A stretch of 64,000 nt of DNA from Gemmatimonadaceae bacterium (GTDB lineage Bacteria; Gemmatimonadota; Gemmatimonadetes; Gemmatimonadales; Gemmatimonadaceae). The notes under the pieces are model-generated. The model searched no databases, had not been told where the DNA came from, and saw only the letters and a list, made by a program, of their open reading frames with translations. Position numbers and translations under genes: made by a program. The stretch's first letter is position 1. Each line of letters begins with the position of its first letter. The stretch is taken from the NCBI GenBank assembly GCA_019752115.1, contig JAIEMN010000018.1, forward strand, positions 1 to 64,000, written 5' to 3'. Positions 33,673 through 38,097 of the stretch are shown piece by piece.

Positions 33673-34491
33673 TCATCCCGGCAGGGCGCGCACCAGTCGG
33701 GCGAAGTCGTCGGGTGACAGCATCTCGGGGCGGACGTCGGTAGGCAGACCGGCCGCCTCAATCGCCGCCGCGGCCCGCTCAGGATCAAGATTGGCGGCCG
33801 TCCGCACGACGCGAATGAGCTGCTTGCGGCGCAAGCCGAACGCCGCCAGAACAAACTGTCGATAGCGCGCTTCGAGCGCGGGCTCGATCACCGGATCGGC
33901 GCGTGGGGTGACGCGCACCACGGCCGAGTCCACGGCGGGTGGCGGATTGAAGCTTTTCGGCGGCACCTTCCGGATCATCTCCACCTGCACCAGCGCCTGC
34001 AGATTGACGCTGAGGGCCCCATAGATCTTGTCGCCCGGTGGCGCGGCCATGCGATCGGCGACTTCCTTCTGCACCAGATACACCGCGCGCTCCGGGCGCG
34101 GCACCGTCAGCGCGTGGAAGATGATCGGCGTGGTGATGTAATACGGCACATTCCCCGCGAGCACGTACGGGCCGCCGGCCAGCGCCCCCAGATCCTGTTG
34201 CAGCACGTCCCCTTCCACGATCGAGACGTGCGGGCGCGCCGCGTAGCGCGCGCGGAGATGCGCCACGAGATCGCGATCGAGTTCGATGGCCACCAGGCGC
34301 CCCGCGCGTTCGACCAGCTTGTCCGTCAGCGCACCACGACCGGGGCCGATCTCGATCACCGTGTGCTCGCGCACGTCACCCAGCGCGTCGGCGATCGAAT
34401 CGAGCACGCGATCGTCCTTGAGGAAGTGCTGCCCGAAGCGCTTGCGTGGTGCGGGCAACGCATCCGGGCGCGGGCGTCGGGACTGCCTCAC
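33673..34491 (-). CDS. rsmA: 16S rRNA (adenine(1518)-N6/adenine(1519)-N6)-dimethyltransferase
   Basis: KsgA family, 272 residues. Motifs FGQHFLKD, the SAM site VIEIGPGRGALT, and the NVPYYIT active-site motif (NLPY variant) are all present, with the C-terminal helical domain after residue 190. It dimethylates two adjacent adenines near the 3' end of 16S rRNA. The GTG start overlaps the phosphatase gene as GTGA; its 3' end faces rex with a 16-nt gap. Confidence 0.95.
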   Translation of the reverse strand: MRQSRRPRPDALPAPRKRFGQHFLKDDRVLDSIADALGDVREHTVIEIGPGRGALTDKLVERAGRLVAIELDRDLVAHLRARYAARPHVSIVEGDVLQQDLGALAGGPYVLAGNVPYYITTPIIFHALTVPRPERAVYLVQKEVADRMAAPPGDKIYGALSVNLQALVQVEMIRKVPPKSFNPPPAVDSAVVRVTPRADPVIEPALEARYRQFVLAAFGLRRKQLIRVVRTAANLDPERAAAAIEAAGLPTDVRPEMLSPDDFARLVRALPG

Positions 34492-36161
34492 GGCCGGTCC
34501 ACCACAACGACCGTGCAGTCATCCTTGAGTGGCGTGCGCCCGATATGGGCATCGACCCGCGCGAACACGGCCGCGACGATCTGATCAGGGGTGGCATCGG
34601 CGGGCGTCGCCTCGAGCGTACGGATCACCTGCGCCTCACTGAGTCGGGTATTGCGTGCATCGCGGGCGTCGATGACGCCATCGGTCAGAAAGACGAGCCG
34701 ATCACCGGCGCGCCAGCGCATGACGCTTTCTTCCACCGTGCCGTCGCCAAAGCCGAGCGGCGGCGCGACCGCGCCCATGCGCACGCACTGGCCGTCGGCG
34801 GACAGTTTGAAGCAGTGGGGATGGCCGGCATTGGCATACCGCACTTCCTGCGCGCGCGAATCGATGACGGCGTAGCACATCGAGACGGACATCTCCGTGC
34901 TCTCGAGTTCGTCCTGCAGCGAGCGCTGCACCGACTCCACCGCGATGGACGGATCGAACGCGGCCTGCACATGAATGGCCGCCGCACTCAACGCGAGTGC
35001 CATGATCAGCGCGGACTGATAGCCATGCCCGGACACGTCGCCGATCAGCACGCCGGTGCGGTACTGATCGAGCCGCGCGAGCAGATAGAAGTCGCCGCCG
35101 ACGCTTTCGGCGGCCTCCACGCGCGCGGCGGCCCGCGCCTCCGGATGCACGACCGCCGGCTTCGGCATCAACTTGAGCTGCAGCTCCTGCGCGAGGAGCA
35201 GTTCCCGGGCGAGCTGCTGCCGCTCCACGGCGGCGCGCACCAGCGACGCATTGTGCATCGCGGTGCCGACCTGGGTGCTTACCGCGAGCGCCAGCTTGCG
35301 ATCGCCAGCGCTGAACGGATGCCCGCCGCGCCGACCGGCGAGGACGAGCACACCGAGGGGGGCGCTGCTCATGGGGACGCTGAGCGGCACCGTGATCGGC
35401 GGCGTCGGATCGGCGCCACGTCGGGTGCCAACGGCCGGATAACTGCCGGTGATGTGCAGACTCGACGACGGGCGCGTGATCGCCACCGCGAGCAACGGTT
35501 CCCCCTGCGGCGCGAGCACGGGGTCCGCCGAGATGCCGGCGATGCCGTCTTCGGTACTGGCCCCGCTGCTCCGGAAGGCGCGCACCGCGATGTGCCCCGT
35601 CGCATCAAAGTGCACTGGGGGATAGTCATCGACGCTGAGCCCCAGTGCCGCGATCGGGCGCAGAATGCCCTGCGACCGGTTGGTCTGCAGAAACACCGCG
35701 CGCGGCGCGCCGACCGTTTCGGCGAGCTCGGCGAGCAGCGTGTCCGCCACGCTCTCCACTGACGTGGAGCTGCCGAGCAGTTCGCCGATGGCGTAGAGCA
35801 GATTGATCTCTTCGTAGCGCTCCACGAGCTCGCGCGTGGCCCCATCGCGTTCGCGGGTGAGGCGACGCATGAGGGGCACGAGCCGACCGAGCAGGCGATC
35901 GGCATCGGCCGCATGACCGGGCTCCACGAAGAGCCAGCCCACGCCCTCTCCGGTCGTGACCAGCTGCGCGTGGAGCGCCTGCGCGCGCGCCCACGTGGCG
36001 ACGTCCCACGCGCGGACCCCGGGCTCGGTACGCTCGGCGAAGGCCTCGGAGGAGCTTCCCAGCAGCGTGGGGGTCACGCTGCCTTCCCGTCGCTCCCAGA
36101 TCGCGGCCTCACGCCCGGTGGCCTCCAGAAAGGCGGCCAGAAGGGCGGTGACTTCGGTCAT
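34488..36161 (-). CDS. PP2C-type (RsbU/SpoIIE-like) serine phosphatase with GAF domain
   Basis: 557 residues. An N-terminal region of about 110 residues of unknown type is followed by a GAF-like sensor domain (about 115-320). The C-terminal PPM phosphatase domain (about 340-557) has all metal-binding acids: ESVGGDFY, IGDVSGHG, FLTDGV and KDDCTV. Such enzymes dephosphorylate STAS anti-anti-sigma factors and so release sigma factors or other targets. It overlaps an RsbW-like kinase gene (ATGA) and sits one gene from a STAS gene, completing a partner-switching set. There is no membrane segment, so it senses a cytoplasmic signal. Confidence 0.9.
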   Translation of the reverse strand: MTEVTALLAAFLEATGREAAIWERREGSVTPTLLGSSSEAFAERTEPGVRAWDVATWARAQALHAQLVTTGEGVGWLFVEPGHAADADRLLGRLVPLMRRLTRERDGATRELVERYEEINLLYAIGELLGSSTSVESVADTLLAELAETVGAPRAVFLQTNRSQGILRPIAALGLSVDDYPPVHFDATGHIAVRAFRSSGASTEDGIAGISADPVLAPQGEPLLAVAITRPSSSLHITGSYPAVGTRRGADPTPPITVPLSVPMSSAPLGVLVLAGRRGGHPFSAGDRKLALAVSTQVGTAMHNASLVRAAVERQQLARELLLAQELQLKLMPKPAVVHPEARAAARVEAAESVGGDFYLLARLDQYRTGVLIGDVSGHGYQSALIMALALSAAAIHVQAAFDPSIAVESVQRSLQDELESTEMSVSMCYAVIDSRAQEVRYANAGHPHCFKLSADGQCVRMGAVAPPLGFGDGTVEESVMRWRAGDRLVFLTDGVIDARDARNTRLSEAQVIRTLEATPADATPDQIVAAVFARVDAHIGRTPLKDDCTVVVVDRP

Positions 36162-36580
36162 GCGCGGTGGAGCGTAAGGCGGAGCCGATGCCCGTGCGGA
36201 TGCTCGACGCGATCGTTCTCCACGAGATCCATGAGCGAGCGCATCAGAAACACGCCCCGCCCGCGTTCCCGCTCGAACCAGTCGGCGTCATCGGGTGACT
36301 GCGACACCGCGCCGAGGTCGAAGCCCGGCCCTTCGTCGGTGACCTCCACCAGCAACCGGTGCTCGCTCACCACCGCCAACACCAGCACACGGCGTTCGGG
36401 CGCGTTGCCGTTGCCGCGAAGCATGGCGTTGGCGATCGCCTCCGTGACGGCCACGGGCACATTCAGCTGACAGTGGCGCGCCGAATACCCCGCCGCACGA
36501 CAGAGACCGACGATCTCGTCGATCACCGCCGGAATGCGCTGCACATCCGTCGCCAGCGTCCACTCACGCACGTGCTCCAT
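36158..36580 (-). CDS. RsbW-like anti-sigma factor serine kinase (HATPase)
   Basis: 140 residues, a single GHKL ATPase domain: N box VTEAIANAMLRGN, G1 box VTDEGPGFD, G2 box GRGVFLMRSLMDLV. Proteins of this type bind a sigma factor or phosphorylate a STAS antagonist. I chose the ATG at 36580 because GGAG lies 8 nt upstream; a GTG at 36643 would add an Arg/Ser-rich tail. It lies between the STAS and phosphatase genes in the same direction. No sigma factor gene is present in the window. Confidence 0.88.
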   Translation of the reverse strand: MEHVREWTLATDVQRIPAVIDEIVGLCRAAGYSARHCQLNVPVAVTEAIANAMLRGNGNAPERRVLVLAVVSEHRLLVEVTDEGPGFDLGAVSQSPDDADWFERERGRGVFLMRSLMDLVENDRVEHPHGHRLRLTLHRA

Positions 36581-36665
36581 CGGCGACTCCGCGGCCGCGG
36601 CACCGCGGCGTTTGGCAGAACGAGGTGAGACAGACGGGCTCACGCGGCGCGTCCGCGAGCGAGAC

Positions 36666-36998
36666 TCAGCGACCCGCCACGGCGTCGTCGCGCGTGGCGA
36701 AGAGGGGAAAGAGCTGGTCGAGGCGCGTGAGTTCGAAGAGCGAGCGCAGGTCGTCGTTGAGACCGACGAGCCGCAGGTCACCGCCGGCATCGCGCAGGCG
36801 GCGACTGAGCGAGACCAGCGCGCCGAGCCCGGAGCTGTCGATGTAGGGCGAGTTCGTGAAATCCACGATCACCACGCGTGCGCCCTGCTCCATCCCGTCG
36901 AGGATCGCCTGCTTGAACTCCTGCCGATTGGCGACCACGAGCTGGCCGTCCACCGTCACGAGCAGGAGGTCATCGGTACGATCGAGGGTGAAGCTCAT
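36666..36998 (-). CDS. STAS-domain anti-anti-sigma factor
   Basis: 110 residues, one STAS domain with the phosphorylation motif YIDSSGLGALV (Ser55/Ser56) and the C-terminal helices typical of RsbV/SpoIIAA. The ATG at 36998 begins MSFTLDRTDD; the longer in-frame sequence upstream is not conserved and overlaps pta. Phosphorylation by the downstream kinase and removal by the PP2C phosphatase would switch partner binding. Confidence 0.92.
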   Translation of the reverse strand: MSFTLDRTDDLLLVTVDGQLVVANRQEFKQAILDGMEQGARVVIVDFTNSPYIDSSGLGALVSLSRRLRDAGGDLRLVGLNDDLRSLFELTRLDQLFPLFATRDDAVAGR

Positions 36999-37053: not shown

Positions 37054-38097
37054 TCACGACGCCGTCGTGATCGGGGGCGCGTGCGGGCCGGTGGCCTGCA
37101 GCGCCGTGATCGCGGCGACATGCACAATGTCGTCGGCCGTTGCCCCGCGGGACAAGTCACTGCACGGGCGCGCCAGCCCCTGCAGAATGGGGCCGATGGC
37201 TGTGCCATGGGCCACCCGCTGGACCAGCTTGTAGGCGATGTTCCCGGCGTCGAGCGAGGGGAACACCAGCACGTTGGCCTGGCCGGCGGCACCCTCGCCG
37301 GGCGCCTTGCGGGCCGCGATCTCGGGGATGAGTGCCGCGTCGGCCTGCAGCTCGCCGGAGACGGTCAACTCGGGCGCCTCGGCGCGCACCAGCGCGACCG
37401 CTTCGCGAACCTTGCTGACCGACGGGGCGTCCGCGCTCCCCATCGTGCTGAACGACAGGAACGCGACGCGCGGTTCGTCCCCGACGATGCGCCGTCGGTC
37501 CGCCGCCGCAGCCAGCGCGATATCGGCCAGCTGGCGGGCCGTGGGATCGGGGAGGACGGCGCAATCGGTAAAGGTCAGCACTTCCGGCGCGCCGGTGCGG
37601 AACGGCGGCACGATGAGGTAGAAGCTGGACGACACCGTCCGCACGCCCGGCGCGGCGCCGATCGTCCAGAGCGCTGCCCGCAACACGTCAGCGGTCGTAT
37701 GCACTGCGCCGGCCACGCAGCCGTCGGCGATCCCCATCGCCACCAGCGAATCGGCGAAGTACAACGGATCGACGGCCAACCGCTCCGCGTCGTCTCGGCT
37801 CAACCCCTTCCCGCCGCGACGGGCCAGCAGGTGCGCCACCACCGCGTCGGTCCGCGGATCATCGAGCGGATCGAGCAGCTGGACCCCGATCGGCACGACG
37901 CCGGTCGGGGCATCACTGCGGCGCACCAGCACCGGGCGCACCGATCCCCGCTTCTGCAGCGCGAGCACCGCCTGCGCCGTGCGGATATCGGTGGCCTCCG
38001 GAAAGAGGATCGTGCGCGGCGCCCGCCCCGCGCGCTCGTGCAGCGAGTCGAGGAACGCCGTGGCCGCCGATGGCCCCGTGTCGGCCCCTGTCGTCAT
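37054..38097 (-). CDS. pta: phosphate acetyltransferase
   Basis: Interconverts acetyl-CoA and acetyl phosphate. The 347-residue protein is the short single-domain PTA_PTB form, with [13 protein letters not shown] at the N-terminus and a C-terminal [17 protein letters not shown] motif characteristic of Pta. No acetate kinase gene is in the window. It overlaps coaD by ATGA, placing CoA synthesis and acetyl-CoA use in one unit. The STAS gene begins 55 nt downstream. Confidence 0.94.

Follow-up and report, generated by a model that had tools for sequence, protein, structure and literature searches.

The window analysed here is a stretch of 64,000 nucleotides from a Gemmatimonadaceae bacterium of the phylum Gemmatimonadota (assembly GCA_019752115.1, contig JAIEMN010000018.1, positions 1–64,000), the minus strand of which encodes, in three successive open frames, a STAS protein, an RsbW-like kinase and a GAF-PP2C phosphatase. 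The STAS-domain switch protein (SpoIIAA/RsbV-like; P0001; 36666–36998, minus strand as are all features below) has 110 amino acids (aa) and is matched by Pfam STAS (1.2e-23) and, over the cut-off, by TIGR00377 (ant_ant_sig). The RsbW-like serine kinase (P0002; 36158–36643; Pfam HATPase_c_2, 1.3e-18) has 161 aa if read from GTG 36643 or 140 aa if read from ATG 36580, and the RsbU-like phosphatase (P0003; 34488–36161) has 557 aa with Pfam matches to SpoIIE (2.5e-40) and GAF_3 (6.8e-7). As read from the sequence, the kinase and phosphatase genes overlap by ATGA (36158–36161) and the phosphatase gene overlaps the start of rsmA/ksgA (33673–34491; TIGR00755, 1.9e-73, over the cut-off) by GTGA (34488–34491). 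On the other side, the gene for phosphate acetyltransferase, pta (37054–38097; Pfam PTA_PTB, 2.2e-101), ends 55 bases before the start of the STAS gene; it is a neighbour and is not judged to be part of the switch. The gene order, the overlaps and the pta and rsmA flanks had been given in a preliminary description of this DNA, and are borne out by the frames, the sequence and the Pfam/NCBIfam matches. The three genes stand in a housekeeping run of dnaG, recJ, rsmD, coaD, pta, the module and rsmA, with rex opposite (all names except pta and rsmA are our own reading). That no sigma factor lies nearby also holds insofar as no sigma-70 region 3 match in the window exceeds the family cut-off, the scan not extending to extracytoplasmic function (ECF) sigma factors; a single sub-threshold region 3 match is found at 2108–2179.

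The residues on which partner switching depends appear to be intact in all three proteins. In the STAS protein the presumed phosphorylation site is Ser55 (codon 36834–36836) in the motif YIDSSGLG, which we take to be equivalent to the phosphorylated serine of SpoIIAA. The motif DSxG was found in 143 of 149 distinct STAS frames, the exceptions being DGFG in four lone proteins of lineage f11 and DTPG in two proteins of lineage f8. The AlphaFold2 model of the protein (mean predicted local distance difference test, pLDDT, 94.6) has the SpoIIAA fold with Ser55 heading the second helix, and its best structural match is SpoIIAA itself (1th8_B; Z 19.6, root-mean-square deviation 1.2, 110 residues aligned). 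The NCBIfam equivalog cut-off for SpoIIAA is not reached (46.4 of 114.75 bits). The kinase is closest by sequence to RsbW (6m36) and SpoIIAB and is far under the curated equivalog cut-offs for both (35.6 of 145 bits for RsbW, 32.5 of 135 bits for SpoIIAB). Its N box, EAIANA (36425–36442), is present as EAxxNA in 127 of 129 distinct kinases. A loss of the phosphorylatable serine or of the N box in most relatives, which had been named beforehand as what would speak against the module, was thus not found.

The phosphatase model (pLDDT 89.8) comprises a small N-terminal alpha/beta domain, a helix (residues 84–131; 35769–35912), a GAF domain (135–304; 35250–35759), a second helix (285–331; 35169–35309) that joins GAF and PP2C in the predicted model, and the PP2C catalytic domain (343–556; 34494–35135). 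The model consists of globular domains and long helices and so would agree with the earlier description of a soluble enzyme. In all 41 sequences, our own included, D357, D375, D494, D547 and D548 are invariant, and we assume that D357, D375, D494 and D548 bind metal. Alignment columns were used for this count because rigid PP2C motif patterns undercount (DDxT in 91 of 127). The SpoIIE family was matched in 39 of 39 aligned members and so was GAF_3 (own protein included; L054 and L058 left out). Residues 110–134, the end of the first helix, are the most conserved segment of those compared, with a mean identity to our own protein of 63% as against 23% for residues 1–110, 34% for the GAF domain and 46% for the catalytic part. 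Given this conservation and the helix in the model, helix 84–131 (RYEEINLLY), which precedes the GAF domain, is probably a signalling helix. Because the segment is more conserved than the domains flanking it, the phosphatase fits a sensor with changing input domains and a constant transmission helix. The closest sequences to the GAF part are those of an adenylate cyclase GAF domain (1ykd), a metal-dependent phosphohydrolase (4mcw) and the GAF domain of DevS, which name no ligand, and the PP2C part resembles RssB (3eq2) and SiaA (6k4e). The N-terminal domain (residues 1–80) was not placed by structure comparison, in which the match list was filled by PP2C matches. Taken together, domains, DSxG motif, N box and catalytic aspartates argue for a complete partner-switching module, as the preliminary description had proposed; on these sequence features the module belongs to that class, and a role in sigma-factor control is putative.

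A relative of the phosphatase is found in 272 of 298 Gemmatimonadota genomes (E ≤ 1e-20). The comparison of the neighbourhood across the phylum, which had been suggested earlier, was made with 40 loci anchored on the phosphatase, chosen by us among the phosphatase matches listed, and with 80 named loci anchored on the STAS gene, which were the best 80 of 528 in a contig scan and partially overlap with the first set. The best 80 of 528 are mostly from Gemmatimonadota, a few being labelled plainly "bacterium" and two otherwise (Kuenenia and Gammaproteobacteria; short contigs, probably misbinned). In all 40 phosphatase-anchored loci the order STAS, kinase, phosphatase, rsmA is kept, which excludes chance. 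All three genes of the module are present in 76 of the 80 STAS-anchored loci; in the remaining four, two end just after the STAS gene, one is without phosphatase and one is without a kinase match. Upstream of the module, pta is found in 37 of the 40 phosphatase-anchored loci, and it is absent at the locus (only the locus is meant) in 3 of these 40 and in 10 of the 80. The genes recJ and rsmD are present in 40 of 40, and pta is therefore no closer a companion than these two. The link to pta is positional.

Among the eight proteins compared over the 38 of the 40 phosphatase-anchored loci in which the gene caller found all three module genes, the STAS protein has the highest mean pairwise identity, 72.5%. 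The others follow with 62% (coaD), 57% (pta, 35 loci), 56% (rsmD), 54% (recJ), 52% (rsmA), 51% (PP2C domain) and 46% (kinase). In a control operon from the sister lineage f11 (three genomes), the gap is smaller: STAS 61–73% versus kinase 56–63%.

STAS outlives its kinase and phosphatase, a point that the preliminary description had missed. In thirteen genomes (G085, G103, G132, G110, G122, G139, G097, G178, G182, G280, G235, G234 and G193) only the STAS gene is left at the locus. The contig of G235 ends inside the STAS gene, but there rsmA directly follows it; G234 and G193 have weak phosphatase matches only and are counted beyond the 26 genomes without a phosphatase match. In six genomes (G135, G281, G089, G120, G125 and G176) the whole module is absent, pta abuts rsmA and no STAS match is found anywhere (E ≤ 1e-4). 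Six of the 26 genomes were taken as assembly breaks: the contigs of G055 and G270 break off at the module or within it, and G081, G231, G267 and G179 also have no rsmA match. G204, G209 and G293 have no STAS match, their loci not having been seen. The reverse pattern, a phosphatase without STAS or kinase, was not seen, both being present in 40 of 40 phosphatase-anchored loci. In a tree of 78 taxa (seven housekeeping proteins, 2161 columns, L124 dropped, midpoint rooting) the STAS-only state forms six maximal clades and the empty state three, the count of losses assuming that the module was never regained. For example, the STAS-only genome G132 adjoins the module-bearing G134 with a support of 0.99.

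HATPase_c_2 was searched for at E ≤ 1e-6 in 21 genomes, eight of them STAS-only, and in five of these eight (G085, G103, G132, G110 and G122) no match was found. Between G085 and G103 the lone STAS gene is under purifying selection, with nonsynonymous (dN) and synonymous (dS) rates of 0.061 and 0.504 versus 0.081 and 0.740 for rsmA (dN/dS 0.12 and 0.11, respectively); some other pairs are too diverged or too close to judge. It may be added that the five genomes have sizes of 1.8–2.7 Mb and a G+C content of 44–56% at the locus (L126, L128, L131, L136 and L134), that pta is gone from the locus along with kinase and phosphatase, and that G110 and G122 additionally lack one of the sigma factors discussed below, s1.

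On balance we consider it probable, by no great degree, that STAS is the output of the system and binds a conserved target which is neither the kinase nor a sigma factor of the SigB/SigF type, kinase and phosphatase serving to tune it. We see STAS as the output because, had it no partners other than the kinase and phosphatase, one would hardly expect it to persist without them or to be under so much stronger constraint. Judged from family membership and intact catalytic residues, the kinase would phosphorylate STAS on Ser55, and the phosphatase, controlled by its N-terminal and GAF domains via the long helices, would remove the phosphate. If the switch runs in this direction, unphosphorylated STAS would bind the conserved target, kinase and phosphatase would set the amount of free STAS, and lineages that lack both enzymes would keep STAS in a fixed state.

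Several points weigh against this view. No target of STAS was found. Outside f8, every one of the 11 STAS-only genomes retains Ser55 (the two f8 genomes have Thr), and since five genomes are without a kinase match, either the serine is structural or another kinase acts on it; a structural role may be considered by analogy with the effect of Thr52Ala in E. coli MlaB (PMC7367683, in excerpt). Of the STAS-only genomes searched for kinases, G139 has a second kinase-STAS pair elsewhere, besides two unrelated frames between STAS and rsmA; G097 and G178 have one HATPase_c_2 match each (about 30 bits, inside frames of 407 and 504 aa), which are probably histidine kinases; and the search covered eight STAS-only genomes, G182, G280, G193, G234 and G235 lying outside it. 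In G035 STAS and kinase are present at the locus and a phosphatase is not. The STAS proteins of f8, g78 and G193 are divergent, so that their role may have changed, and four from g74 (101 aa) are without the C-terminal end. Six genomes have lost STAS too, and STAS is therefore dispensable. Finally, several tree nodes that separate the losses are weakly supported, and rooting was by midpoint. Separately, it was observed that the divergent STAS genes of f8 (L181, 4442–4747; L183, 9295–9591), which have DTPG at the phosphosite, lie beside rsmA and that an aminotransferase-like frame stands between coaD and STAS in both loci.

The main rival is an anti-sigma switch of the Chlamydia type, in which the kinase sequesters an RpoD-family sigma factor and unphosphorylated STAS releases it. 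Its model is the RsbW of Chlamydia, which binds the main sigma factor sigma66 (PMC4552016, in excerpt), and suitable partners would be at hand: a search with PF04539 found three region-3 sigma factors over the cut-off in the own genome, s1, s2 and s3, all of the RpoD family with about 290 aa, and all three are present in the nine module-bearing genomes sorted. A SigB/SigF-type sigma factor was not found in the own genome (E ≤ 0.001; genome 97% complete), although a divergent group-3 protein could be missed; the group-3-like sigma proteins of five relatives score low in the region-3 search. A survey of 23 further genomes gave 71 rows, of which 66 were fetched, five sub-threshold rows being left out. 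Clear relatives of s1, s2 or s3 make up 58 of the 66, the rest being two long RpoD-like proteins (f8), five group-3-like proteins and one (L281) without a sigma match. By our own grouping, the group-3-like proteins are from G004, G044 and G069, which have the module, and from G135 and G281, which do not. Within this region-3/RpoD-family survey, which does not cover ECF sigma factors, no sigma factor examined tracks the module. Module-less f7 genomes lack s1, which at first suggested co-loss, but s1 orthologues are equally missing (best match at most 52% identical) from 16 f7 genomes that do have a phosphatase match (locus seen in three), and s1 was rejected as the partner. Moreover, the six genomes without the module also retain s1, s2 or s3, STAS persists in the five genomes in which there is no RsbW-type kinase match to antagonise, and the kinase scores far under the curated RsbW and SpoIIAB cut-offs. 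We therefore regard an anti-sigma role of this type as unlikely.

Decidedly less probable is that the STAS protein of the window acts like MlaB, as a subunit of the lipid transporter MlaFED that is controlled by phosphorylation. In E. coli the STAS protein MlaB has Thr52 at the equivalent site; Thr52 lies in the interface with MlaF and a phosphomimetic there weakens binding (PMC7367683, in excerpt). In three of the four f11 genomes examined, a phosphatase-kinase-STAS trio is directly followed by mlaE, mlaF and mlaD, and in these genomes a partner switch is apparently wired to the lipid transporter. The full order in G001, G009 and G003 (L137, L433 and L435) is NtrC-like regulator, GAF-PP2C, kinase, STAS (with DSSG), MlaE, MlaF, MlaD and Lon. 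In G001 the labels of STAS and of the Mla genes are from Pfam, those of the kinases in G001 and G003 are from kinase matches, and the others are from similarity or our own reading. In the fourth genome, G011, a short contig has STAS next to mla genes. However, in all four genomes it is a STAS other than the Mla-linked one that comes closest to the window's protein, and the latter reaches 27.7 bits in the MlaB model (NF033618), for which the cut-off is 90. Co-occurrence with Mla was rejected as a link to the module, since MlaE is present in 39 of 39 genomes examined, STAS-less ones included, and there is thus no co-loss. No STAS gene was called in the mla loci of the own genome, MlaB is not among the 50 listed structural matches of the STAS model, which excludes nothing, and no open-access paper was found that joins MlaB and RsbW. 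Two side observations concern the same genes. In the own genome, an MlaF-like ATPase gene adjoins s2 on contig C19 (77835–79662; L438, 3835–5662), and MlaE genes are on C32 and C68. In f11, loci L132, L133, L135 and L138 have a lone, well conserved STAS with YIDGFG, glycine replacing the phosphorylatable serine.

The own genome has further genes of this kind. In total, three short frames match the kinase family strongly, and there are three small STAS proteins as well as two phosphatases with a strong SpoIIE-type match. A second kinase-STAS pair, on contig C17 (22532–23313 and 29388–30626; L013), is divergent from a putative ECF sigma factor gene and has a receiver-PP2C phosphatase at a distance of 6 kb, and a third, on C19 (180597–183184; L014), is followed by two genes that we label patatin-like. 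A PP2C protein on contig C7 (27.2 bits) was tried as an RsbU and dismissed, as it reads as a general Ser/Thr phosphatase. With such a set, and with a putative ECF sigma factor gene and patatin-like genes beside two of the pairs, the module could be a node of a cross-wired network whose output lies in the C17 and C19 pairs; this is very improbable, however, for in G004, G044, G034 and G254 the kinase of the module is the only HATPase_c_2 match (E ≤ 1e-6) and the module therefore works alone there. The most improbable proposal, despite pta standing upstream in most loci, is that the module senses the status of acetyl-phosphate or acetyl-CoA by virtue of the pta link, an idea of the preliminary description that finds no support here, because several lineages have the module but no pta at the locus, pta and rsmA occur without the module in the six genomes of three clades, and recJ and rsmD are no less close companions.

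Several known systems are close to this one. With RsbU-RsbV-RsbW and SpoIIE-SpoIIAA-SpoIIAB of Bacillus it shares the three domain types and the intact catalytic and phosphorylation motifs; unlike there, no SigB/SigF-type sigma factor was found, the setting is recJ-rsmD-coaD-pta-rsmA and STAS survives alone. As in RsbU-RsbV1-RsbW of Chlamydia trachomatis, any non-ECF sigma target could only be of the RpoD type (PMC4552016, in excerpt), whereas a GAF-PP2C phosphatase and STAS-only lineages are features of the system described here. Phosphorylated small proteins that act as output are on record in SypA of Vibrio fischeri and SiaC of Pseudomonas (PMC8256260 and PMC7647112, both in excerpt). According to these excerpts, SypE is kinase and phosphatase in one protein, unlike here, and SypA is without a known target, while in SiaA-SiaB-SiaC-SiaD, again unlike here, SiaC acts on SiaD from the same operon and is not termed a STAS protein; a SiaA-type likeness exists in the PP2C part. 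MlaB in E. coli MlaFEDB is alike in being a STAS protein with Ser/Thr at the equivalent place and acts on the transporter ATPase (PMC7367683, in excerpt); the STAS of the window differs in being far under the MlaB cut-off and without mla linkage in its own genome. The earlier proposal that the output partner is encoded elsewhere stands only so far as no output gene adjoins the module. No open-access paper was found on partner switching in Gemmatimonadota, nor on Gemmatimonas anti-sigma factors together with STAS.

Two things are unusual about the module: it keeps one position among housekeeping genes in much of the phylum, and STAS has repeatedly survived by itself. The usual interpretation of a partner switch is control of a sigma factor; this one is widespread in the phylum, and no SigB/SigF-type sigma factor is detectable in the genome studied. 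Nature provides a deletion series, from the full module through STAS plus kinase and STAS by itself to complete absence, that separates the output from its controllers, and the STAS-only species allow a search for a direct target of STAS in which the kinase does not interfere. As a tentative and rather doubtful extension, partner switching may be reversed in this phylum, such that a near-invariant STAS regulates a core process and the repeatedly lost tuning pair is optional, a pair of this kind having been wired to Mla in f11. The phosphatase-kinase-STAS-mlaEFD arrangement of f11 bears on a question left open in the excerpted text of PMC7367683, namely in what way active MlaB is controlled and whether phosphorylation does so. 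If the wiring is true, lipid transport in this lineage would be phospho-controlled through an MlaB-like STAS protein.

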